This document shows positions 20,091 through 34,146 of a DNA stretch of 64,000 nucleotides, piece by piece. The DNA is taken from assembly GCF_007741475.1 (NCBI RefSeq), contig NZ_CP036261.1, positions 248,001 to 312,000 on the forward strand. Direction: 5' to 3'. The DNA comes from Rosistilla ulvae (GTDB taxonomy: Bacteria > Planctomycetota > Planctomycetia > Pirellulales > Pirellulaceae). Each line of letters starts with the position of its first letter. Positions within the stretch are counted from its first letter, which is position 1. The notes below the pieces were generated by a model, which was not told the DNA's origin, made no database searches, and saw only the letters and a list, made by a program, of their open reading frames with translations. Position numbers and translations under genes: made by a program.

Positions 20091-23000
20091 TCAGCGGGGC
20101 GCTTCGATTTTTTCGACGCGGCAGAATTGTTCGACCAATGCGTCGTGCAGCTGCGTTTGCCCAACCGGTTTTGGCAGGTGGCAGATCTCTGTGGTTTCTT
20201 GGATCAACGTTGGGCTGACCGCCGACACCACCAATAAGATTGCGGCGTCTCGCGCGGCGGGATGCTGCCCGATGGCGGAGTCCCGTGGCGGGTCGGACGG
20301 TTCGGCGAGGGTTTCGTCGGTGATCACGAGATCGTACGCCCAACCCGCCGCTGTTGCCTGCCCCAGTTGCTCGAGCCCGGCGTCAAAATCGCTAACCGCA
20401 TCGACCTGAATGTCCCAGGCGGTCATCGAATCGACGATCATTTTTCGAACCGCTGGATGCGGCTGAAGCACCAACACACGGCGAGACTTCAAGCTTTGGA
20501 CAACGCGTTGGGGCGGGCAATCGGTTGCCACATCGGTTCGGCGAAAGCTGGTCGAGAACCAGAACTGCGAACCGATTCCGACATTGCTGTGCACGCCGAT
20601 CTGGCCCCCCATCGCTTCGACGATCGCCTTGCTGATCGACAGGCCCAGCCCCGATCCGCCGTACTTGCGGCTGATCGAACCATCGACTTGCGAAAACGTC
20701 TGAAACACGCGGTCCAGGCGGTCTTCCGGAATTCCAATCCCCGTGTCCTGGATCGAGAACAAAATCGTCGCTTCTTCGTCGCTTAGATGTTGCAGTTCGG
20801 CGCGCAGAGTGATCTCGCCGCGCTCGGTGAACTTGATCGCGTTGGCCATCAGGTTGACCAGCACCTGTCGCAACCGATGACTGTCACCGATCAGATGCAA
20901 CGTGTTGGGGTGGTCCAGGTAATACAGCAGTTCGAGATCTTTCTTTCCCACTCGGGCCGGCATCGATTCCATCAGATCGTCGAACAATTGCAGCAGATCG
21001 AACGGATGGTCGTCCAGTTCCAGTCCTCCTGCTTCGACGCGGGAGAGATCCAAGATGTCGCTGATCAAAGTCAACAACGCATTGCCACTGCTCTGACACG
21101 CGCTGACAAACCGTCGCTGGCGTGCATCCAACGGCGAATCGGCTAACAACTCCGTCATCCCGATCACTCCGTTGAGCGGCGTTCGCAACTCATGGCTCAT
21201 CGTCGCCAGAAATTCGCTCTTCGCACCGCTGGCCCGTTCCGCCTCCTCTTTGGCGGCTAGCAGCGACCGTTCGCTCTCCTTGCGTTGGGTGACATCGACT
21301 TGGGTGACGATGAAATTGCAGACCTCGCCCTCGCCGTCAAAAACCGGATCGATTTTTAGATCGGTCCAATAGCCTTTACCGAACTTGTTGTAGTTGTACA
21401 TTTCCGCTGCCACGCTCTTCCGCTGTCCCAGCGTGTGGATGATCTCGGCGACCGTTTCAGGATCGGTTTCTGCCCCGTGCAGAATCGTTTCCGGTCGCCG
21501 ACCGACAACATCCTGCAGCGTGTAACCGGTCAGCAGCGTAAACGCTTGGTTCACCCATTCGATTCGCCGCAACGCATCGGTGATGAAGACCGAGTGTTGG
21601 GTCTTGCTGGCGACCAGCGAAAGTTTGGAGATCTCGCGGTGGGAATCGCGAAGCTTGTCTTCGGCTCGTTTGCGTTCGACAAACAGAGCGATCGTATCGG
21701 CGATCGCCGCCAGCCCCTCGAGGGTCTTCGCTTCCAGGCGCTGGTTGGCGAAGAGGGCCAAGACACCGGCAACCCGGTCGCCAACAATCAACGGATAGCC
21801 CGCAAACGCAACCATCCCTTCGCGCTTTGCCCATTGCGGATGGCCGATCTCACCATCGTTGGGCACATCGTTGGTCAAATGCGGCTGTCGCGAAGCGGCG
21901 ATCCGTCCGATTTTGAAGCTGCCGACAGGAACGCGCGCATGGCCACCATCGATGTGGGTATACATCCCGGCACTGGCCTGCAGGTCGAGTATCTTTTCGG
22001 AGGAATCGATCGTCCAGATCCGGGCGAAACTGGCGCCAAGGCGGTTGACGACCGCTTGGCAGCATTGCTGCAAACCGGGGCGCAGGTGTTCGGCACGCGA
22101 TAGGGCGATCCCCACGTCGGCCATCAAGTTGGCGACTTGGGTCCGTTCGGCAAGTCGCGCTTCGACCTGCCTCCGCTCCGAAATGTCGCGCACAATCGCA
22201 ACAAAACGGGGTGGTTCATCGACCGGTGCCACGTATTGGATCAAGACGTCGACGGGGACCTCCTGGCCATCCTTGCGGCAGTGATGTGTTTCGAAGCGTC
22301 GCGAGGATTGCGAATCGGCCATCAATTCGTCGAACAACGCCCTCAGTTGATCTCGGGACATCGTCGAATCGATGTCGAAGATCGACATCTGCTCCAGTTC
22401 CTCGACGGTATAGCCGAGGTGTTCGATTGCGCCGCGATTTAAATAATAGAACCGGAAATTGTCGGGGCGGAACATGAAGACGCAATCATAGGTTTGGTCG
22501 AGCGTCGTCTTGAATTCATTCAGTTTCAGTTCATGCTGCTTCCACTTGGTCAGATCGACCTGCGTGCCGACCATTCGATAGGGACGCGCTTCGGCGGCGC
22601 GGCGGACGGCGACGGCGCGCGACAGGACATGCAGATAGTGTCCTTCCTTGTGGCGGACCCGGCACTCCAGTTCAAACGTATCGGCCAGACCGTTTTGGCA
22701 CCGCTGGATCGCCTCTCGGACGCGAGGTTGATCATCGGGATGGATCAGCGAATAAGAGTCCGCCGGATCGGTTCCCAGTTCGTCTCGCGTGTAGCCCATC
22801 ATCTCCAGATAGCGCGTCGAATAATAGATCTCGCGCGTTTCGGTGTTGCAGTCCCAGATCCCGTCGTTGCTGCCTCGGACCGCCAGGTTCAATTGCTCGC
22901 GACTGAGCTGCAGTTCGTCTTCCAGGGCCAGTTGCCGCTCGATCTGTTCGTCGGAGGCAAGTTTGGCCGCCTGCAATTCCTGTGTTCGCGTCTTGACCAG

Positions 23001-24092
23001 CCGCTGAACGTGTTCGGTTCGACGGGATTGCACACCGATAAAACCACTGACAAGCAGCGAGGCCAAGATGCCTGCTGCCAAGGCCATCGTCGGCGTGTTG
23101 TTGCGACGTTTGGCGACATAGTCGTTGTTTGCTGTGAAGTGCATGGTCCAGTGGCGACCGGCCAGTTGGATGTTGCCTTCGTAGACCAGCATCGATGCTG
23201 CGGTGGGACCAGTAGACGTTTTGTTGAGGTGGTCGGAAGCATCGACCAGGCGGGGCTGTCTCGCATAGGCAATCGGCCCGGTTTGTGGCGTGCCTCGTTC
23301 GTGCAGCAGAATATGGATTCCGACGGGGACCAGCGAATCGATCGCCGATTCGAGCACTTCGTCGATCCGCAGTCCACCGACGACAACCCCTCGCAGTACG
23401 GGCGGTTTCCCCGCAATGGCGTTTGTCGCCGATTCGCGTTCAAAGATCGGGCGGAGCAATCGGACTCGCAGTCCTGGGCTGGTGTGGGAGATTTGCCGGG
23501 CCGGTGCCGCTGATAGGCCAGGAGTCGTGATCGCGTTGTTGAGCGATTGTTGGAGCGCGGAATTGACGCCAAAGTCTTCCCCCAATGCGACCATCGGATC
23601 GCCCTGGGGATAGACAAACGTGACCGGCAGATAGCGATCGCGCTCCTCGGCCGGCCGAAGTTTCCCATCGGATTGGCGTTGGACGATCCCGTTGGGCGGA
23701 GCGAATTCGCCGTTTTCGTAGGCCTCGCGATCCTCTCCCGATACATTTGCTAGCCAGGCAATGCTGTCGATGCCAACGGCTGCTGGTTTGACCGTGGTGA
23801 CGAAGCTGTCGAATTCGGATTGGTCGACCTTGGTGGAGCTGTTGTAGATCGCTTCGACCGACCGAATCAGATCGACTGGCCTGGCCAAGCCGGCGCGAAA
23901 CACTTCGGCACGCTCGATCGACGAGGCGTGGAACTCCTTGCGTATCGCTCGGAGTTCGAGCGAACGCATGACGTTCCACAAGGCAAAGCTAGCAATCACA
24001 CCGGAGACGAGGACCAGCAGCGGAAGGATCCATTGCTGTCGCTGTGCATCGCGAAGCACGCTGCCAGTTGCTGGGCGTGATTGAAAATTCAT
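20091..24092 (-). CDS. large sensor histidine kinase: CHASE, PAS, PAS, GAF, PAS, HisKA, HATPase, pseudo-receiver
   Basis: 1333 residues. TM1 is at about 22-42. A CHASE-like extracytoplasmic domain follows (about 52-330; VRLLRPIFERES, RGVVVGGLRIDEVL), then TM2 at about 334-353. PAS domains lie at about 397-517, 522-642 and 817-942, with a GAF domain at 657-807. His967 is in TMSHELRTP, and a complete HATPase follows (DTGIGIP, GSGLGLS). The C-terminal about 120 residues align with the degenerate first receiver of the kinase at 28474-31890 (VLVLQPHPAVRKM versus [20 protein letters not shown] versus LAKPVGQ). The protein then ends, without the canonical second receiver. The ATG at 24092 is preferred over the TTG at 24176. 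Confidence 0.92.
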   Translation of the reverse strand: MNFQSRPATGSVLRDAQRQQWILPLLVLVSGVIASFALWNVMRSLELRAIRKEFHASSIERAEVFRAGLARPVDLIRSVEAIYNSSTKVDQSEFDSFVTTVKPAAVGIDSIAWLANVSGEDREAYENGEFAPPNGIVQRQSDGKLRPAEERDRYLPVTFVYPQGDPMVALGEDFGVNSALQQSLNNAITTPGLSAAPARQISHTSPGLRVRLLRPIFERESATNAIAGKPPVLRGVVVGGLRIDEVLESAIDSLVPVGIHILLHERGTPQTGPIAYARQPRLVDASDHLNKTSTGPTAASMLVYEGNIQLAGRHWTMHFTANNDYVAKRRNNTPTMALAAGILASLLVSGFIGVQSRRTEHVQRLVKTRTQELQAAKLASDEQIERQLALEDELQLSREQLNLAVRGSNDGIWDCNTETREIYYSTRYLEMMGYTRDELGTDPADSYSLIHPDDQPRVREAIQRCQNGLADTFELECRVRHKEGHYLHVLSRAVAVRRAAEARPYRMVGTQVDLTKWKQHELKLNEFKTTLDQTYDCVFMFRPDNFRFYYLNRGAIEHLGYTVEELEQMSIFDIDSTMSRDQLRALFDELMADSQSSRRFETHHCRKDGQEVPVDVLIQYVAPVDEPPRFVAIVRDISERRQVEARLAERTQVANLMADVGIALSRAEHLRPGLQQCCQAVVNRLGASFARIWTIDSSEKILDLQASAGMYTHIDGGHARVPVGSFKIGRIAASRQPHLTNDVPNDGEIGHPQWAKREGMVAFAGYPLIVGDRVAGVLALFANQRLEAKTLEGLAAIADTIALFVERKRAEDKLRDSHREISKLSLVASKTQHSVFITDALRRIEWVNQAFTLLTGYTLQDVVGRRPETILHGAETDPETVAEIIHTLGQRKSVAAEMYNYNKFGKGYWTDLKIDPVFDGEGEVCNFIVTQVDVTQRKESERSLLAAKEEAERASGAKSEFLATMSHELRTPLNGVIGMTELLADSPLDARQRRFVSACQSSGNALLTLISDILDLSRVEAGGLELDDHPFDLLQLFDDLMESMPARVGKKDLELLYYLDHPNTLHLIGDSHRLRQVLVNLMANAIKFTERGEITLRAELQHLSDEEATILFSIQDTGIGIPEDRLDRVFQTFSQVDGSISRKYGGSGLGLSISKAIVEAMGGQIGVHSNVGIGSQFWFSTSFRRTDVATDCPPQRVVQSLKSRRVLVLQPHPAVRKMIVDSMTAWDIQVDAVSDFDAGLEQLGQATAAGWAYDLVITDETLAEPSDPPRDSAIGQHPAARDAAILLVVSAVSPTLIQETTEICHLPKPVGQTQLHDALVEQFCRVEKIEAPR

Positions 24093-24296
24093 TGCTTCAG
24101 TGCGAATCGAGAGGCGATGTTCGGCCCAATCCATTGGGTGGCGATCGCATCGCGGATTGCAATCGTGTTTATTCAATCAGATCGGTGGCAGCCGGTCGCG
24201 ACTTGAGGTAAACAACCAGCGGGGGGCTGCCATAGACGCCTTGCCCCCCTCTGGAGAGGCTTTGCTGCTGCGTCGTGTGGTGGGGGGAGGGTTAGG

Positions 24297-24752: not shown

Positions 24753-26009
24753 TCAGGCGCGTTCCAGTTCGCGTTGGGTCAGCGAAGGGATAAAAGCGAG
24801 GCAGCGGGAGACTTCGCTTTGGAGATCGTCGATCAAGTCGACGATGTCTTCGAGGTCATCTTGCCGTCCGGCGCGTTCGATCTCCGCCGCGATCGATTGC
24901 AACGGATGGGCGGCGAGGATTCCCGCCATTCCCTTGAGTGTGTGCGCGGCGTTTCCGGCGGCGGTTGCATCGCGTTGGTTGGCGTACATAACGATCTCGT
25001 CGACGCGGGCGCGGCTGTCCGATTCAAACGATTCCAACAACGATTCCGCGAATCCAAGGTCTCCCATGCACCGTTCCATGAACTCTTGACGGGCAAATGG
25101 CAACTGAGTCTCGGGCTGTGGAGTATCCACGGTGGGTGTTGTCCGATTATGCAGCGTTTGCGGAAGCCATTGTTGGACGATTTCGGTCAGCTGTTTCGGA
25201 TTAAATGGTTTGGCCAAATAGTCGTCCATGCCGGCATCGATGCACTTCTGCCGATCCTCTTTCAAGGCATTTGCGGTGACAGCGATAATCGGGCATGGTG
25301 AGCGGACGCGGCCATCCAGTTGGCGGTTGCGAATTTCTTGAGTCAATGAAAACCCGTCCATGATCGGCATTTGGCAATCCATCAAAATCAGATCGTACGC
25401 TTGGGATTCGATCGCCTGCAGCGCCTCGCTGCCATTTGCAGCAATTTGGCATTGCCAGCCATTGCCGATCAATACCTCGTGGGCCAGCATTTGATTGATC
25501 TCGTTGTCTTCGACCAGCAGGATTTGGGGTGTTCCCGGGATTGCAAGGGTTTGCAACCCATCGGCTTCAGGGACGCTGATGGCGGCGGAGTTCGAATCGG
25601 TCGCTGCATCGGGGTGTGAAGTGTCTGTGGCGGTTGTTTCTCGTGTTGTGTGGCGGGTCGGTTCGTTTGCGTCGCGGTACACAGCGAACACCTCTTGTGT
25701 GGTTTGGGGTGGATTGGGGGCGGGTGGGTTGGAGAGTTCTTGGGCGGTGGACAACATTTTTTGTAGGCCGTGAATCTGTGATTGAACGCCACGGACGGCC
25801 GGTTCAAATACAAACACGACTTCGATGAAAATCGCCAGCATCGTCAATACAAAGATCGTTCGTTCAGGGGCTGCCGGCATTTGCAAAGCCCATGGGATCA
25901 CAAACTGCGCGGTGATCGATAGGCCGAGGATCACACACAATGACCGGAGGTAGGCGCGACGCAGATCCCTGCTGGGATCGTGCTGCGGTGGAGATGGCGT
26001 CTTGTTCAT
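24753..26009 (-). CDS. membrane-anchored REC-Hpt phosphorelay protein
   Basis: 418 residues. Two hydrophobic helices (about 20-40 and 51-69) anchor the protein. A Pro/Thr-rich linker leads to a canonical receiver (about 160-285; LLVEDNEINQM, Asp211 in [17 protein letters not shown]). A C-terminal Hpt domain follows, with His356 in AAHTLKGMAG. It has both intermediate modules of a multistep phosphorelay (Asp then His) but no kinase. It lies 98 bases downstream of the receiver-less kinase, its obvious donor. The final Asp acceptor could be the HD-GYP regulator or an unlinked protein. Translation probably starts at the ATG at 26009. Confidence 0.9.
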   Translation of the reverse strand: MNKTPSPPQHDPSRDLRRAYLRSLCVILGLSITAQFVIPWALQMPAAPERTIFVLTMLAIFIEVVFVFEPAVRGVQSQIHGLQKMLSTAQELSNPPAPNPPQTTQEVFAVYRDANEPTRHTTRETTATDTSHPDAATDSNSAAISVPEADGLQTLAIPGTPQILLVEDNEINQMLAHEVLIGNGWQCQIAANGSEALQAIESQAYDLILMDCQMPIMDGFSLTQEIRNRQLDGRVRSPCPIIAVTANALKEDRQKCIDAGMDDYLAKPFNPKQLTEIVQQWLPQTLHNRTTPTVDTPQPETQLPFARQEFMERCMGDLGFAESLLESFESDSRARVDEIVMYANQRDATAAGNAAHTLKGMAGILAAHPLQSIAAEIERAGRQDDLEDIVDLIDDLQSEVSRCLAFIPSLTQRELERA

Positions 26010-26107
26010 GATGGCAGGTTTTGAGCTGTCGATATTCTGTATTCGTTTGCTTCGCATCCAATGAAGTTTGCGGCGACCTGGTGCCCGTTGGGGTTTGTGA
26101 ATCGCTA

Positions 26108-27619
26108 CTAATAAGTCGAACTAGAGTGCCCGCACTGGAGGGTGTCGGGAACGTCTGCATCCAACGGGCAGTCCGCGAATTGCAATTCGGTGCGATCCGG
26201 CAGGGCGTGCTGATTGGTCGGTTGAGTTGCCGATGCCCCGATGTCGGTTTCTCGAGCAGCAAGTTCGCGGCGAAAGACCGCCGTAAACCAAAACCTCGAT
26301 CCAACGCCCGGTTCGCTCTCCACGCCGATCTGTCCCCCCAACGCATCGACGATCGATTTGCTGATCGACAATCCAAGTCCTGACCCGCCGTATTTGCGGC
26401 GAATCGATCCATCGACCTGAGAGAACGATTGAAACAACCGATCCAATCGGTTGCGGGGGATTCCGATCCCGGTGTCCTGGATCGAAAATAGTAGCGCGAC
26501 CCGATCGGCCGACGCTTCTTGAACTTCCACCCGCAACGCGACCTCACCACACTCGGTGAACTTGAGCGCGTTGCCCATTAGATTGACAAGCACCTGCTGA
26601 AGGCGGTCGCTGTCACCCTCGAGATGTCGCGGCGCCGAACTGTCCAAGTGGCATCGTAGCTGGACGTCTTTCTCCTGCAGTCGCAGCGGCATGCCAGCCA
26701 TCACATCGTCCAGCAATTGTCGTAGATCGAAAGGCTGTTCGTCTAACTCCATCCGACCCGATTCAAGTTTGGAAAAGTCGAGGATGTCGTTGATCAATCG
26801 CAATAAAAGAGTTCCACTGCTTCGGCACGCGTTGACAAACCGACGTTGTCGATCGCTCAACTGCGAATCGGCCAACAACTCTGTCATTCCGATCACGCCA
26901 TTAAGGGGCGTGCGCAGTTCATGGCTCATGCTGGCCAAAAACTCTCCTTTGACACAATTCGCCTCTTCGGCCGCCCGTCGGGCTTCGTCCAACTGTACGG
27001 TGTGGAATGCCAACGCATGCATTTCGCGAACGCTTTGTCGAATCGTGATCAGCAAAACGAGGTCTTCGAACAACACCCATGCGGCGTGTTCCGTCCATCG
27101 CCACGGCGACGTGTTGGCGACTCCGAAGACCGATTCAGGCCACCAGATGCCGCGAATGGCATGATCGGCGATCATTACCAACGTCGCCAGCACGAGCACT
27201 TTCCAGTCGCGGTAGGCGGCCAGGAATGCAAGCGAAACAAAGATATGGAAGTGTGTCTCGATCCGGCCTCCGGTGACATGAATTAACAGGCACGAGAACA
27301 ACAACTGGCTAGCGGCGACGACAAACCGGGTGCTCAATCGTCCGGGCTTCAACAGCGCCATCGCGATGGGAAGGCTGGCCAGCAGTCCTCCGCCGAAGAT
27401 CGCCATCAATACATGCGGATGCGGCGCACTTTGCATCCCATCCCAGGTGCGCGGCGAAAACCAGCAGGCCGCGATGATTATTGCAGCCCACTGCAGAACC
27501 ATCAGGCCGGCGAACATGCGGTCGGTGCGTCGATAGATCGCCAACGCGTGCCGCTGGAAATGGACGTGTTGGGAGCGTCGGAACCTTTGCTCGCGAATCG
27601 ATTGCGTCGGGTGGATCAT
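26108..27619 (-). CDS. sensor histidine kinase with six-helix membrane sensor, no receiver
   Basis: 503 residues. About six membrane helices span residues 35-195 and include GGRIETHFHIF (117-127), AYRDWKV and DHAIRGIWWPESVFG. I recognise this as a membrane sensor module shared with some chemoreceptors and cyclases, with no known ligand. The kinase core follows: His233 in SMSHELRTP, then DTGIGIP and GSGLGLS. The core is a close paralogue of the cores at 20091-24092 and 28474-31890 ([12 protein letters not shown]). Unlike those it ends shortly after the HATPase, with no receiver. Its ATG overlaps the stop of the thioredoxin-like gene (ATGA), so the two are translationally coupled. Confidence 0.92.
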   Translation of the reverse strand: MIHPTQSIREQRFRRSQHVHFQRHALAIYRRTDRMFAGLMVLQWAAIIIAACWFSPRTWDGMQSAPHPHVLMAIFGGGLLASLPIAMALLKPGRLSTRFVVAASQLLFSCLLIHVTGGRIETHFHIFVSLAFLAAYRDWKVLVLATLVMIADHAIRGIWWPESVFGVANTSPWRWTEHAAWVLFEDLVLLITIRQSVREMHALAFHTVQLDEARRAAEEANCVKGEFLASMSHELRTPLNGVIGMTELLADSQLSDRQRRFVNACRSSGTLLLRLINDILDFSKLESGRMELDEQPFDLRQLLDDVMAGMPLRLQEKDVQLRCHLDSSAPRHLEGDSDRLQQVLVNLMGNALKFTECGEVALRVEVQEASADRVALLFSIQDTGIGIPRNRLDRLFQSFSQVDGSIRRKYGGSGLGLSISKSIVDALGGQIGVESEPGVGSRFWFTAVFRRELAARETDIGASATQPTNQHALPDRTELQFADCPLDADVPDTLQCGHSSSTY

Positions 27620-28359
27620 CGGTTAGACTCCCTCGTCGGCAATGTCGAACTTGTCAACCGCAGCGATGCGGGCGGGGATAACAACTTGCATCCGAAAGCC
27701 GGTTGGACCACGCACATGTCGCGATCGGGGTGGGGGTGGTGTGTGGCATCGTGTTGGGTCAGTAGAGTCCGCAACCAACCTCCAGCCCGGCTTTCTCCAG
27801 CCTGGCCGCGCGCGGTCGTTACGCCGCCCGAAAAAAGTTGTTTGCCGGCGGGATCGAACAGCATCACCGTTCCGCTGGTGTTGACGCCAAACCGTGCGCA
27901 CTCGATACCTTGATGGTCGGGTACCAGTGTCGAATTAGGCAGGGTTTGTGCCCGTTGATTCAGCCGGCTGTCGCGCCAGTCAGACGGTTCGTTGGTCGGC
28001 ATGCTGGCGACGATCAAAGTGTTCGGCAGCGGGCTGGATTGGGTTGCCACCGCAGACAAGATTTTCTGTAATTCGCCGACCGTGGCCTCGCTGCATGAAC
28101 ATTTCGGATGCAGAAACAGCACAAGCGTTGGCGACTGATCCGCCAGCGGAAGCGATGACTGCGAAGGCCAATTGGCGACATCTTGGCTGAGATTGCTAGG
28201 GTTGGTTCGCAGGCCATAGTCGGTTATCCAAGCGAAACATCCGGCAACCGCGACCAACCAGCCAATCGTTACCAAGAACCAGGTCCGACGCGTTTGGGGC
28301 GACAAACATAGAACCGATCGATCTGCGGCCAGTGGGCCGTCGACTGTGGTTTTGAGCAT
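27616..28359 (-). CDS. membrane-anchored thioredoxin-like (redoxin) protein
   Basis: 247 residues. One membrane helix lies at about 27-46, followed by a predicted extracytoplasmic domain: PTLVLFLHPKCSCSEATVGEL with Cys87 and Cys89 in a C-x-C arrangement at the start of the first helix, as in redoxin folds. A variable middle, GVNTSGTVMLFDPAGKQLF (the cis-Pro strand region), and a Cys/His-containing tail complete it. It is not a classical CxxC thioredoxin. A role in sensing or transmitting periplasmic redox state is inferred from position only: the stop overlaps the start of a membrane sensor kinase (ATGA). It is preceded 114 bases upstream by the ethylene-receptor-like hybrid kinase on the same strand. 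Confidence 0.8.
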   Translation of the reverse strand: MLKTTVDGPLAADRSVLCLSPQTRRTWFLVTIGWLVAVAGCFAWITDYGLRTNPSNLSQDVANWPSQSSLPLADQSPTLVLFLHPKCSCSEATVGELQKILSAVATQSSPLPNTLIVASMPTNEPSDWRDSRLNQRAQTLPNSTLVPDHQGIECARFGVNTSGTVMLFDPAGKQLFSGGVTTARGQAGESRAGGWLRTLLTQHDATHHPHPDRDMCVVQPAFGCKLLSPPASLRLTSSTLPTRESNR

Positions 28360-28473: not shown

Positions 28474-31400
28474 TTATGCCAGTTCGCTGGGACTCTCGCC
28501 GCAAACGGTTGCTGCGGGCAAGGTGGGCTGGGGGATCGGCGGCGCCAGCGGCCAGTTGGTAAGTGCCGCCGGTTGGCTGTCGCATTGAGGGGCGTCGCAG
28601 TTTCCCAACGCAGCGCGTTGTGAGCGCTTATCTGCCAGTTCCAACATGCTTTGCGTGACCGCGTTCAGATGCGCCGGATTGAAAGGTTTGGAGACATAAT
28701 CATCCATCCCTGCGTGCAGGCACCGTTCGCGATCGCCTTGAACCGCATTGGCGGTCAACGCGACGATCGCCGGCGAATATCCGATCCGTCCGTCGGCTTC
28801 GCGTTTGCGGATTTCATGTGTCGCGGTAAACCCGTCCATGATTGGCATTTGGCAATCCATCAGGATCACGCTGTAACGCTTCGATTCGACTGCTTGCAAT
28901 GCTTCAACGCCGTTTTCGACGATGTCACATGTAAAGCCGCCTCGCGAAAGGATCTCCCGTGCGAACAACTGGTTGGTCGCATTGTCTTCGGCCAGCAGGA
29001 TTCGCGTCGCGGTTTTGGCCTCGTCTCGCTGTTGTTCCTGCTGCACAATATTGTTCGCGACGGCAACCTCGCGTTTGTTGGGGCCGCGGCAGAATTGGTC
29101 GACCAACGCATCGAGCAGGTGGGATTGGCCAACGGGTTTCGCTAGGCAGCGTTCGTATTGATCGGCATCGATCCTCGCGTCGCGATCGGGCGATCCGTTC
29201 ACGAACAGTGGAACCGGGGCGTTGTTCTGTCGGCGATGTTCCTGGAGGTGTTCGATCAACCGGCCATCGCAATCGCTGAAGATCGCATCGTCGGCGAGGA
29301 CCAGGTCGTAGGGTTGGCCGGTTCCGGAGCCGCGTTCCAGGCGTCGTTTTGCGAGTTCAGTTGTCGCCACAGGGTCGACGTGGATCTCCCAGTTACGGAA
29401 AAACTGGGCCAGCATTTTCCGTGCTGCCGGTTGGGGTTCGATCAGTAGGACGCGGAGATTCGACAGTCGTCCGAGCGACCAATCTTGCGTCGAATCGGGA
29501 GCTTCTTCGCTGTGTCGAAACGTGACGGTGAACCAAAACTTCGATCCAACCCCCTCGGTGCTCTCGACGCCGATCTGGCCGCCCAATGCGTCGACGATCG
29601 CTTTGCTGATCGAAAGCCCCAGTCCCGATCCACCGTATTTGCGACTGATCGAACTGTCGACCTGGGAAAACGATTTGAACAACCTGTCCAATCGGTCTTG
29701 CGGGATGCCGATTCCAGTGTCTTCGATGGAGAACCGGATCGTGGCTCGATCGTCGGTCAGTTTTTGCGGTTCAGCTCGCAGCGTGATCTGTCCCTCGTCG
29801 GTGAACTTCATCGCGTTGCCCAACAGATTGATCAACACTTGCCGCAGCCGATGGCTATCGCCGATCAGGTTCAGCGTGGTCGGGCTGTCGAGCATGTACA
29901 GCAACTCGACATTCTTGTCTTCCGATCGCAATGGGGTGCAGGCCATCACATCGTCGAGCAATTGCAAGAGGTCGAACGGATGTTCATCCAGTTCCAACCG
30001 GCCCGCTTCGACTTTGGTCAGGTCCAGAATGTCGCTGATCAGTGTCAGCAACGCGTTGCCGCTGCTTTGACATGCGGTCACGAAACGTCGTTGCCGGTCG
30101 TCCAGCGAGGAATCGGCCAACAATTCGGTCATTCCGATCACGCCGTTGAGCGGAGTCCGCAGTTCGTGGCTCATGCTGGCCAGGAATTCGCTCTTGGCAA
30201 CGCTTGCATCTTCGGCGGCTTTCTTGGCGGTCTGCAGTGCTTCTTCGGCCTGCTTTCGCTCGGTGATATCGCGGACCGAGACGGTCAGCAGATGCGACCC
30301 GCTCAGCCCCACCTCGGTCGTATTAAACTCCAGCGGGAACGTGCTGCCGTCGCGACGCGTGCCGACGATCTCGCGCGTCTTGTTGTGTTCAGGAGGCAAC
30401 GGCCAGGTCATCAGCTTGCTCACGTTGGTGCCGATCAATTCCTTGTCGGTGAACCCGAAGATCCGTTCGACAGCCGAATTCACCATCCCGATCGTGCCGC
30501 ATCGGTCGATCGTCAAGATCCCGTCGAAAGCGGAATTTAAGATCGCGCGGGTCCTTTCGGATGATTCGCACAACGCTTTTTCAGCGTCCTTGCGGCGTTG
30601 GATATCCTCCACCACGCCGATCAAGTGCGACGGAGCGCCGCTGCTGTCGCGGACCAGCGATACCGTTGCGTTTACCCAGACCGGTGAGCCGTCTTTGCGG
30701 ATGTAGCGTTTTTCGGTCGAAAACGAATCACGCTGCCCCGCGATCGCTTGCTCCACTAAGTTCAAGCATTTGCCGAGGTCGTCGGGATGAGTCGCGTCTT
30801 GGAAGTAGCTGGCCAGCAGTTCTTGGCTGCTGTAGCCGAGGATTTTGCATATCCCTTCGTTGACGCGAATCCACCGCCCGTCGAGTGCTACGTGGGCGAT
30901 CCCCAAGGCGATCTTTTCGAACGTCATTCGGAAGTTGCTTTCGCTCGCCTGAAGCGTGTCGCGCTGGCGTTGAGCTTCGGTGCAATCGATGCAGACACCG
31001 ATGAACTTTTCTGGCTCTCCCTTGTCAGCGATATGTTTCCCTAAAACATGCACATAGTGGATCGAACCGTCGCGATGCACGACGCAGTGCGTGGTGTCGT
31101 AGTGAGTTCCCGATGCGATGCATTTGGCAACCTGAACGCCCACTTGTTCGTGTTCACTGGGGTGCAAGCAATCGAGGAAGGTTTGGTATTTGAAGGTGGT
31201 TGCTTCGGGATCGGTGTCGAAAAATTGACGCGTCTTGGCGTCCCAGTCCAGTTGGTCTTCGGTGATGTTCCATTCCCAGACTCCCAAGTTGCCCGCTTCG
31301 ATGGCGAAGTCCAGCTTCGTCATCCGACGCTGCAGCTGCCGGACCTGTTCGGCTTGGGACAATAGAGGACGCAGTTTCGGCATCAGGCAAGCCAAGGCGA

Positions 31401-31890
31401 TCAGCGTGCAGCAGGAGGCCAGTGTGGTCAGCGTCTCCAATGGTTGGGAGAGTCGATCGGCGGGCCACCATCCACGGCCGGTCTGCGCCAGGTGGCTGAG
31501 ACCACTCACCAGCATGAAGCCGGCAAAGATCCACAGCGCGCTGGAGACCGGACAGTCTTTGCGGCACAGCAGGTAGAAACCGAGGGTGGCTGGAATCGCG
31601 AGATAGGCTAAGAAAACCGAGAAGTCGGAAACTCGAGAGCGTCCGACAATGTTTGACGAACCGATGTTGGCAGTCGAATGGGCGACGAAATGGCATCCGC
31701 TCAAGCCGATCAAAGAATCGGGAAACAGCCCGGCGGCGCGCAATTCTCCCGCCATCGGCATCGCTGCCGTGGGGAGATCGAGATGCGATCGGTTGTGTTT
31801 TGCAGCAGCCCCGTCCGACGCAACTACGGCTGCTGCGTTCGCTAGGAACGCGGCAGCTAGGCACATGATGCCTGTGGTTTGTCTATTCAT
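28474..31890 (-). CDS. hybrid histidine kinase with ethylene-receptor-like membrane domain, three PAS, two receivers
   Basis: 1138 residues. A signal-like helix (1-25) is followed by a membrane domain (about 85-172) with [28 protein letters not shown] and [10 protein letters not shown]. It aligns with the three-helix ethylene-binding domain of plant ETR1: Asp89, Tyr96, Pro100, His133 and Cys160 match Asp25, Tyr32, Pro36, His69 and Cys99. Ser129 replaces the copper ligand Cys65. PAS domains lie at about 192-305, 312-435 and 440-545. His575 is in SMSHELRTP, and the HATPase has DTGIGIP and GSGLGLS. A degenerate receiver spans about 812-935. The canonical receiver (about 962-1085) has Asp1012 and Lys1068. 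It is first in a likely operon with the thioredoxin-like gene, a second kinase and the REC-Hpt protein. Confidence 0.92.
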
Positions 31891-32383: not shown

Positions 32384-33889
32384 CTAAGAGTTCCGCTTGT
32401 TTGCGTTCAATCGAGAAAGAGTCAGGCTGATCGCGCGGACCATGCCTTTGGCTTTGTTAACCGTTTCTTCGTATTCCGCATCGGGATTGCTGTCGGCGAC
32501 GACGCCGCAGCCGGCTTGGACGTAGACCTTGTCGTTTTGCACGACCATCGTTCGCAGTGCGATGCAGGTATCCATGTTGCCGCGATAATCGATATAACCG
32601 ACGGCGCCGCCGTAGGGGCCGCGGCGATGCGGTTCCAGTTCGTCGATCACCTCCATCGCGCGAACCTTCGGGGCGCCCGAAACGGTTCCGGCGGGCAAGC
32701 AGGCTTTCAACGCATCAAACGCGTCCAGCCCGTCTCGCAATTCGCCGCGGACCTCGCTGCTGATGTGCATCACGTGGCTATACCGTTCGACTACCATCAC
32801 CTCCGTCAATTCGACGGTTCCGAATTTTGCAATCCGGCCGATGTCGTTGCGCCCCAGGTCGACAAGCATCACGTGTTCGGCGCGCTCCTTCGGATCCGAC
32901 AGCAGCTCTTCTTCTAGCGCCAGGTCCTCTTGTTCGGTGGCGCCGCGGCGGCGGGTGCCGGCCAATGGGCGGACCGTCACGACGCCGTCGACGACGCGCG
33001 TCATGATCTCGGGAGAGCAACCGATCAGGGTGCATTCGGGAGTCCGCATGTAGAACATGAACGGGCTTGGATTGACGACTCGCAGCGAGCGGTAGATCTC
33101 AAACGGATCGACCGACGTGTCGACAGCAAACCGCTGGCTGGGGACGACTTGAAAGATATCGCCGGCGCGGATGTATTCGCGGCACTTCTCGACCGCGTCG
33201 GCAAAACCTTCGCGAGTGAAGTTCGATGAGATATCGAGCTGCTCGTCGTGACTCTGTTCGACGTCGGCGGTTTCCAGGTGCGGCACCGGCCGCGACAGTT
33301 GGGCGACGGTTTCATCGATCCGTTGCTTGGCGTCGCGATAGGCTTCCGCGGGGGAATCAAAATCGGCGGGACGGGCGACGGCGACGATCGTCATCGTCTT
33401 GGTGACGTTGTCGAAAACGACCAAGGTGTGGTAGAAACCGAAATCGAGGTCGGGCAGCTGGCGATCGTCTTCGGGAGCGTTGGGAAGGTTTTCGACGTAA
33501 CGGACGACATCGTAGCCGGCGTATCCGATCGCTCCGCCGACAAAGGGAGGCAGATCGCCGGTGTCGGCAAAGGTCACGCCAGCCAAGTGTCCGCGGAATT
33601 CATCCAGCGGATCGTCGCAGGTTTTTGTTTCGCAAGCGTCGCCTCGCGTGATCGAGACCGATTGGCCGTGGGCGCAGAACCGCATGATCGGATCGACGGC
33701 GAGGAAACTGAAGCGGCCGACTTTCTCGCCGCCAATCACGCTTTCGAACAGACACGCACTGCGGCCGTTGTCCAACAGCCGAAAGGCGCTCACCGGCGTT
33801 AAGCTGTCGCTGAGCAGACGGCGGGAGACCGGGACCAGATCGTGGGTGCTGGCCAGATGGGTGAATTGATCTTCGTTGGGCGTATGCAT
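32384..33889 (-). CDS. trpE: anthranilate synthase component I (TrpE)
   Basis: 501 residues, the normal length. The chorismate-binding domain is complete: GDIFQVVPSQRF, NPSPFMFYMRT, GCSPEIMTR, RPLAGTRRRG, DLGRNDIGR, FDALKACLPAGTVSGAPK, GPYGGAVGY and QAGCGVVADS. The enzyme makes anthranilate from chorismate and ammonia or glutamine, the first step of tryptophan synthesis. An N-terminal LLxxGRSACLFES-like segment fits the tryptophan feedback site. The glutaminase partner (TrpG/PabA) is not in the window. PabB is the main alternative, but the overall pattern and length favour TrpE. The ATG at 33889 removes a non-conserved extension. Confidence 0.9.
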   Translation of the reverse strand: MHTPNEDQFTHLASTHDLVPVSRRLLSDSLTPVSAFRLLDNGRSACLFESVIGGEKVGRFSFLAVDPIMRFCAHGQSVSITRGDACETKTCDDPLDEFRGHLAGVTFADTGDLPPFVGGAIGYAGYDVVRYVENLPNAPEDDRQLPDLDFGFYHTLVVFDNVTKTMTIVAVARPADFDSPAEAYRDAKQRIDETVAQLSRPVPHLETADVEQSHDEQLDISSNFTREGFADAVEKCREYIRAGDIFQVVPSQRFAVDTSVDPFEIYRSLRVVNPSPFMFYMRTPECTLIGCSPEIMTRVVDGVVTVRPLAGTRRRGATEQEDLALEEELLSDPKERAEHVMLVDLGRNDIGRIAKFGTVELTEVMVVERYSHVMHISSEVRGELRDGLDAFDALKACLPAGTVSGAPKVRAMEVIDELEPHRRGPYGGAVGYIDYRGNMDTCIALRTMVVQNDKVYVQAGCGVVADSNPDAEYEETVNKAKGMVRAISLTLSRLNANKRNS

Positions 33890-34146
33890 TGCGTTTACCG
33901 AGGATTGGCGGAATTTGCTGTCATAGAGCGTCAGACCGCCTGGCGGGTTCGAGAGATTCGATTGAAGACTGATCGTGTAATTCGTCCCGGCCCCGTACAA
34001 TAGACAACGGCGAGGGCGAAATGCCGCCGGTCGCTACCAGCCGGTTGCGTTGGTTGACGGTTCAAGGGGGACAGTTAGAATCGGCAAGCCTGTTATTGCA
34101 GGTGATATCTTAATAAGGATGGTGTTTTGAGAAAGGCGTGTGAACA

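Follow-up and report, generated by a model that had tools for sequence, protein, structure and literature searches.

The stretch of DNA analysed here, referred to as the window, comprises 64,000 nucleotides of the Rosistilla ulvae genome (Pirellulaceae; contig NZ_CP036261.1, positions 248,001 to 312,000) and encodes on its minus strand a hybrid histidine kinase with an ethylene receptor-like membrane domain, in which the position of Cys65, a Cu(I) ligand of the plant receptor ETR1, is occupied by serine. Our favoured account, which comparison with related proteins renders probable, is that this protein is a former ethylene receptor that has lost its copper site and has kept the domain as a module for membrane attachment and dimer formation in a kinase that still works. 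The domain would descend from a copper-dependent ethylene-binding domain, as suggested by its profile match and by the presence of Cys65 in the nearest kinase relatives; Cys65 itself is lost, and copper-dependent ethylene binding has probably been lost with it. What remains is a predicted three-helix membrane module, presumably serving as anchor and dimer contact, that runs into a chain of PAS, HisKA, HATPase and receiver domains. Conservation of the kinase core makes it most likely that the protein still signals, with the PAS domains or some other cue at the membrane as the driving input, and the signal would pass to the receiver and perhaps, judging from gene order, to a neighbouring receiver-HPt protein.

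An Ethylene Receptor-Like Domain Without the Copper Ligand Cys65

The reading frame of the window protein is an intact open reading frame with an ATG start. Its identity as a hybrid histidine kinase follows from matches to PF00512, with the phospho-acceptor histidine read in [10 protein letters not shown], to PF02518 and to PF00072 (Response_reg), the last of which matches in two stretches, residues 964-1077 being the better one. The membrane domain (minus strand 31381-31638, translated as [16 protein letters not shown]...[13 protein letters not shown]) matches the Pfam profile PF25487 (ETR1_N) with 67.7 bits against a cut-off of 27, and the E-value of 1.1e-18 rules out a chance resemblance. 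This places residues 85-173 in ETR1_N and not in an unrelated membrane sensor family, an alternative that was also rejected because the NCBIfam matches, among the 25 listed of 163 families, are confined to the PAS and kinase parts. The isolated domain has no match in NCBIfam, and in Pfam it weakly matches DUF308 as well (E 0.037, below the cut-off). Within ETR1_N it is a weak member, scoring 73.1 bits in the genome search and ranking third-lowest of 55 places in the phylum sample, 36 of which reach at least 120 bits. A second ETR1_N place, and hence a copy with Cys65, was not found at E 0.001 or better in the genome (7,475,804 bases, one contig).

The original prediction had recognised the domain by its residues, and the numbers that it gave (Asp89, Tyr96, Pro100, Ser129, His133, Glu152 and Cys160) are all correct in the translation. 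Asp89, Tyr96, Pro100 and His133 correspond to Asp25, Tyr32, Pro36 and His69 of ETR1, and the equivalents of Gly66 and Ser98 are likewise kept; Tyr32 is a residue that we take to contribute to binding in ethylene receptors. The two proposed replacements, Ser129 for Cys65 and Glu152 for Lys91, are both present, and Met126 stands in the place of Ile62. Cys160 does lie at the position of Cys99, as had been suggested, but carries little weight because this position is Trp in 69 of 116 planctomycete alignment rows. According to the literature, which is cited here and below from excerpts of the papers, Cys65 and His69 rank as the principal ligands of Cu(I) and are indispensable to receptor function (PMC13012798; PMC6586836), Pro36 and Ile62 are further ethylene-receptor residues (PMC6586836), and Asp25 is thought to position His69 and to pair with Lys91 (PMC6586836; PMC13012798; PMC11819568). 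Mutation of Cys65 in ETR1, or of its counterpart in SynEtr1, abolishes ethylene binding (PMC11819568).

For residues 57-196 of the window protein, modelled by AlphaFold from 23 aligned rows, helices are predicted at 79-109, 116-140 and 145-195 (23-53, 60-84 and 89-139 in model numbering), and the best of five models has a mean predicted local distance difference test score (pLDDT) of 83.6 (range 74.3-83.6). A Cys65-bearing control from the same family (15 rows; best mean pLDDT 90.7, other four models 73.0-80.7) has membrane helices at 27-54, 61-83 and 90-120, together with three short helices; since the control comes from a different alignment, the two were compared by helix place and not superposed, and on this basis the helices match. 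A convincing sequence relative was not found in the searched copy of the Protein Data Bank (PDB; two matches, E 1.4 and 1.8), nor did any Foldseek match reach E 0.001 (189 fell short of it), so that a solved structure does not confirm the fold. Its retention is consistent with the ETR1 membrane domain, where exchange of the native cysteines, including Cys65, for serine left the structure unperturbed (PMC8982231). The designation as an ethylene receptor-like domain is thus supported by the profile match, the residue correspondence and the three-helix model.

Distribution of Cys65 in Bacterial Domains

The phylum sample has PF25487 in 42 of its 392 genomes, the family sample in 54 of 199, and the genus in all three; all family places were taken in, with the two pieces in G490 counted as one, and one phylum place (G130:C92) was left out. 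After four of 116 rows had been dropped as broken, cut or false (L072, L073, L077, L078), Cys65 is present in 60 of 67 rows of the family and in 45 of 45 other planctomycete rows, and His69 in every row of both sets (67/67 and 45/45). The seven exceptions fall into two groups, namely the genus of the window, where all three genomes (that of the window, G397 and G459) have Ser, and a second group with Ala (G440, G482) or Gly (G443, G445). A profile built from these seven sequences matched eight further genomes among 241 of the family, seven of which were read without revealing a further loss of Cys65 (L236, among the eight, yielded no match on reading), and the places that it listed in the 392 phylum genomes were already known.

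A census of position 65, which the original prediction had proposed, shows Ser to be rare: among 254 distinct aligned bacterial cores, 237 have Cys65 and 17 another residue, which is Ser in four. This sample is uneven, and the true share of cores without Cys65 is probably lower than 17/254, because low-scoring cyanobacterial places were included on purpose. The large alignment excludes rows L072 to L078, seven among the first 116, as truncated, frameshifted, false or cut; three of them (L074, L075, L076) have Cys65. Its 271 rows were reduced to 264 by one filter and to 254 by removal of ten more duplicates, a step that the trees, the motif scan and the family residue table predate. Ile62 is kept in 222 of the 237 Cys65-bearing cores as against one of the 17 without Cys65, and Lys or Arg at position 91 in 229 as against five. 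His69 does not always outlive Cys65, since it is lost in 3/17 Cys65-less and 4/237 Cys65-bearing cores.

Both Cys65 and His69 are present in all 80 named relatives (80 of 226 relatives; Planctomycetota, Bacteroidota, Cyanobacteria and others by title), and among the Bacteroidota, where 19 places in 18 of 296 genomes were found and all were read, a single one is without Cys65. The Cyanobacteria have PF25487 matches in 74 of 292 genomes, from which the two ends of the listed score range were read (31 of the strongest and 20 of the weakest matches). Cys65 is present in 30 of 30 strong matches (31 read, one duplicate removed) and absent from nine of the 20 weak ones (Ser, Gly, Arg, Trp or Asn), three of which are also without His69; four of the other 11 weak places are without His69 alone. 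In L295, L297, L305 and L308, all cyanobacterial, Cys65 is kept and His69 is replaced by Pro, Pro, Tyr and Gln, respectively. Judged from these alignments, loss of Cys65 is uncommon in bacteria and occurred more than once. Because the relatives suggest such repeated loss, the window protein may once have been an ethylene receptor and now serve a different purpose.

Ancestry and Divergence of the Domain

By its PAS and kinase parts, the nearest protein outside the genus among those extracted is that of G409 (59% identity over 599 amino acids), whose membrane domain carries Cys65. In an unrooted tree built for 27 chosen rows from the PAS and kinase parts, the genus is recovered with support of 100/100 and joins G409 with 100/99, while the group of G440, G482, G443 and G445 joins six Cys65-bearing proteins, again with 100/99. 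A single origin of the Cys65-less proteins of the family was rejected when the six Cys65-less rows of this tree were held together (p-AU 0.00104). The tree of the membrane domain itself (85 columns, 134 rows) is weakly resolved; position 65 changes ten times on its best tree, and three changes are forced by supported branches. From the nesting in the tree and the rarity of the Cys65-less state we infer that Cys65 was lost, and not gained.

The Cys65-less domains also appear to evolve faster. Among pairs with 60-90% downstream identity, which share rows and are not independent, the ratio of membrane domain identity to downstream identity is 0.75-1.40 (median 1.01) for 91 Cys65-bearing pairs and 0.50-0.89 for eight Cys65-less pairs, seven of which (0.50-0.67) lie below every Cys65-bearing pair and one of which is at 0.89. 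Between the window protein and G459 the identity is 41% in the domain, 77% in the linker and PAS region and 85% in HisKA-HATPase. We take the domain of the window protein to be under looser constraint than its Cys65-bearing relatives. Such looseness would also be expected from plain decay, in which the kinase works under control of the PAS domains and the membrane part does nothing; the reading frame, however, is open in all three genomes of the genus and in the four members of the second group, which span three genera, and we regard decay as very unlikely.

A pocket without Cys65 in which His133 is kept might instead have become a new sensor for a different cofactor or for some other small hydrophobic molecule, through which the kinase would still be controlled. 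The best hint of this is the retention of the His and Pro positions: those of Pro36 and His69 are invariant in the seven Cys65-less Pirellulaceae domains, although these, except for a near twin, are only 20-36% identical to that of the window protein, and the frame has stayed open throughout the genus. On the other hand, the domain diverges fast in comparison with the kinase (41% vs 85%, as above), the positions of Asp25 and Tyr32 are changed in G459, and three of the nine Cys65-less cyanobacterial domains have lost His69 too, so that new sensing of this kind seems to us unlikely.

Between the window protein and G397 the domain hardly differs, but strong selection as the cause is ruled out by the synonymous divergence (dS), which is 0.03 in the domain and about 0.03-0.08 in the 5' part of the gene, as compared with about 1.2 in the 3' part, where the receivers lie. 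Because of this rise from near zero to about 1.2, the 5' part of the kinase gene is probably a recent exchange or recombination tract. By eye, the anthranilate synthase upstream is nearly identical in the two as well (window 28474-31890 and 32384-34000; L059), and the receiver-like stretch at residues ~801-950, between the HATPase and the last receiver, which looks degenerate by eye, is 59% identical.

N-Terminal Cysteines and a Possible Copper Path

A stretch like FDTxxFPxRWxCGxW precedes most Cys65-bearing planctomycete domains, and PHGxCxLW many cyanobacterial ones. The motif C-x(1,3)-W is found in 226 of 237 Cys65-bearing cores and is missing in 16 of 17 Cys65-less cores (both features 226, neither 16, Cys65 alone 11, motif alone 1; Fisher's test, p 2.4e-17, ignoring ancestry). 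The pairing is seen most plainly in L292, with PHGNSYLW and Ser at position 65. The window protein has no such motif, its Cys66 lying outside it and being absent in G459. The string GCHFVAH, which had been put forward as a source of alternative metal ligands, is shared with G397 and absent from the third species of the genus (G459), and it is therefore not supported as a replacement metal site.

Among 19 extracted planctomycete proteins with an N-terminal hydrophobic segment, at least two tail cysteines and RWxCG are present in all 16 from outside the genus and in none of the three within it; these three represent one lineage and one event, some of the 16 are near-duplicates, and the segments were sought in stop-to-stop frames with a threshold set by us, below which proteins such as L019 went uncounted. 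G409 combines Cys65 with the cysteine of RWxCG, which precedes helix 1, and with a Cys pair that follows the signal-like segment; the genus has none of the three. Tails with a Cys pair (e.g., SCSGGHC, CCAGSNC or CC) were noticed in L011, L012, L014, L052, L080, L106 and others, all of them Cys65-bearing and with a signal-like segment. A tail of this kind before the membrane domain is a possible metal-binding tail. It can be envisaged that bacterial receptors take up copper via an extracytoplasmic cysteine path, consisting of the Cys pair in some and of the RWxCG or PHGxC cysteine, which hands Cu(I) to Cys65 and His69, and that whole lineages, including this genus, have shed the path and Cys65 together and so become copper-free receptors with a new input; we offer this as a tentative proposal whose truth is doubtful.

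Copper could also still be bound, by His133 together with other groups such as Ser129 or Cys160, Cys161 or Cys168 of helix 3 (in G459, the cysteines at 60 and 64), and copper or even ethylene might then be sensed. The domains of the genus are rich in cysteine (5, 5 and 4, whereas 106 others have a median of 1 and at most 4), and a Cys at 64, one residue earlier than Cys65, is found in G459 (L060) and in three related cyanobacterial domains (L293, L298, L301). In vitro, too, spin-labelled ETR1 variants, apparently with new labelled cysteines on a C4S/C6S/C65S/C99S background, took up ~0.75-0.97 Cu(I) per monomer (PMC8982231). The extra cysteines, however, lie at different places in the window protein and G397 than in G459, the N-terminal cysteines are gone as well, and the published Cys65 mutants bind no ethylene (PMC11819568); retention of copper in this way is in our view unlikely.

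Several observations weigh against a simple loss of the copper site followed by retention of the domain as a mere module. Because ETR1 variants apparently built on a C65S background took up Cu(I), loss of Cys65 need not mean loss of copper, and for this reason we consider it likelier that ethylene binding has been lost than that copper is no longer bound at all. The equivalents of Asp25, Tyr32, Pro36, Gly66, His69 and Ser98, all kept in the window protein, appear to exceed the needs of a neutral anchor, and His69 is kept in 14 of 17 Cys65-less cores. The ratio of nonsynonymous to synonymous divergence (dN/dS) of the domain between the window protein and G459, ~0.39, indicates that constraint remains, with a dS of 1.5 that is near saturation. 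As to the co-loss, the counts are uncorrected for ancestry, and a sign test on independent pairs, three of which lie on well supported branches, gives p 1; L298 has lost Cys65 and kept the motif, L306, likewise Cys65-less, retains a Cys near the motif place by eye, and 11 Cys65-bearing cores are without the motif. Even so, a former receptor with a lost copper site remains our preferred account, and the original view that binding of ethylene or copper may have been abolished or changed receives indirect support from the absent N-terminal cysteines, the substitutions of Ile62 and Lys91 and the more rapid divergence of the domain.

Architecture and Gene Neighbourhood

The features of the kinase gene and its neighbours are collected in Table 1. 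Beyond the N-terminal segment, the window protein has hydrophobic segments at about residues 90-108, 113-135 and 151-169.

Table 1. Features of the kinase gene and of neighbouring genes, in window coordinates.
Feature	Position	Strand	Basis
Hybrid histidine kinase, 1138 aa: N-terminal hydrophobic segment, ETR1_N, PAS repeats, HisKA, HATPase, receiver-like stretch, receiver	28474..31890	-	Open reading frame and Pfam
N-terminal hydrophobic, signal-peptide-like segment, residues 6-24	31819..31875	-	Kyte-Doolittle window 1.97
N-terminal tail, residues 25-84, without the Cys pair and RWxCG of relatives; holds GCHFVAH	31639..31818	-	Alignment, tail count
Ethylene receptor-like membrane domain ETR1_N, residues 85-173	31372..31638	-	PF25487, E 1.1e-18; three-helix model, pLDDT 83.6
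Ser129 codon, Cu(I) ligand position Cys65	31504..31506	-	Sequence, census
His133 codon, position His69, kept	31492..31494	-	Sequence, census
Glu152 codon, position Lys91	31435..31437	-	Sequence, census
PAS region, ~ residues 196-560	30211..31305	-	PF08447, PF00989, PF13426, PF08448
HisKA, residues 565-630	30001..30198	-	PF00512, E 4.6e-21
HATPase_c, residues 677-791	29518..29862	-	PF02518, E 1.3e-29
Receiver domain, residues 964-1077	28660..29001	-	PF00072, best stretch
Cluster gene following the kinase, 247 aa, with a single hydrophobic segment and CxC (HPKCSC); resemblance to thioredoxin by eye only	27616..28359	-	Open reading frame; counterparts recognised by eye in G397 and G459
Second membrane histidine kinase, 503 aa, no receiver found	26108..27619	-	Pfam HisKA and HATPase_c
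Receiver and HPt protein, 434 aa, possible partner of both kinases	24753..26057	-	Open reading frame; Pfam on G397 counterpart only

The window, G397 and G459 share a gene order of anthranilate synthase (assigned by Pfam in the window, by eye in the other two), the kinase gene, the small CxC protein, for which Pfam gives no match, and the second membrane kinase. The receiver-HPt gene comes next in the window and in G397, and the G459 locus ends before that point. From this order, a phosphorelay through the neighbouring genes is plausible. The N-terminal membrane part of the second kinase contains GGRIETHFHIF and has no Pfam match; its kinase core closely resembles that of the window protein by eye. 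A further large hybrid kinase (1361 aa, minus strand 20091-24176) has a core that is likewise very similar by eye and may represent a local duplication.

Comparison With Known Receptors and Implications

The ETR1-type proteins with PF25487 (plant ETR1, SynEtr1 of Synechocystis, AzoEtr1 of Azospirillum) have, like the window protein, a three-helix membrane domain before a histidine kinase, and share with it the equivalents of Asp25, Tyr32, Pro36, Gly66 and His69 and a profile score above the curated cut-off. The window protein differs in having Ser for Cys65, Glu for Lys91, Met for Ile62 and no N-terminal Cys motif, and ETR1, SynEtr1 and AzoEtr1 bind or respond to ethylene, which the window protein may no longer do. 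The planctomycete hybrid kinases of the type in G409, G350 and G238 share the signal-like segment, the membrane domain, the PAS repeats and the histidine kinase, but have Cys65, RWxCG and at least two tail cysteines, all of which the window protein lacks. The second Cys65-less group (G440, G482, G443, G445) resembles it in the replaced Cys65 (Ala or Gly), the kept His69, the missing RWxCG cysteine and the fast evolution of the domain (five of six pairs), yet belongs to a separate PAS and kinase lineage, and none of its members passes the test for an N-terminal hydrophobic segment. An extra N-terminal hydrophobic stretch is also described for the plant subfamily 2 receptors ETR2, ERS2 and EIN4 (PMC6682694; PMC13012798), a likeness in outline that implies no kinship.

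Natural variants at the aspartate are already in print (PMC13012798). None of the papers listed in searches of open full texts dealt with ethylene receptors of planctomycetes or with receptors that naturally lack Cys65; as some reviews of non-plant receptors lay outside this literature, absence from print does not follow. How copper is transferred and how it is coordinated in ethylene receptors are described as open questions (PMC8982231). The absent N-terminal cysteines draw attention to residues with a possible role in copper delivery or in holding the dimer together, and if the repeated co-loss is real, it would make the copper route to the ethylene site testable by comparison of natural sister proteins. 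The presence of ETR1_N in a bacterial genome may be taken as a sign of an ethylene sensor; Cys65 should be checked before this label is given, because the copper ligand appears to have been lost more than once while the fold and the kinase stayed.

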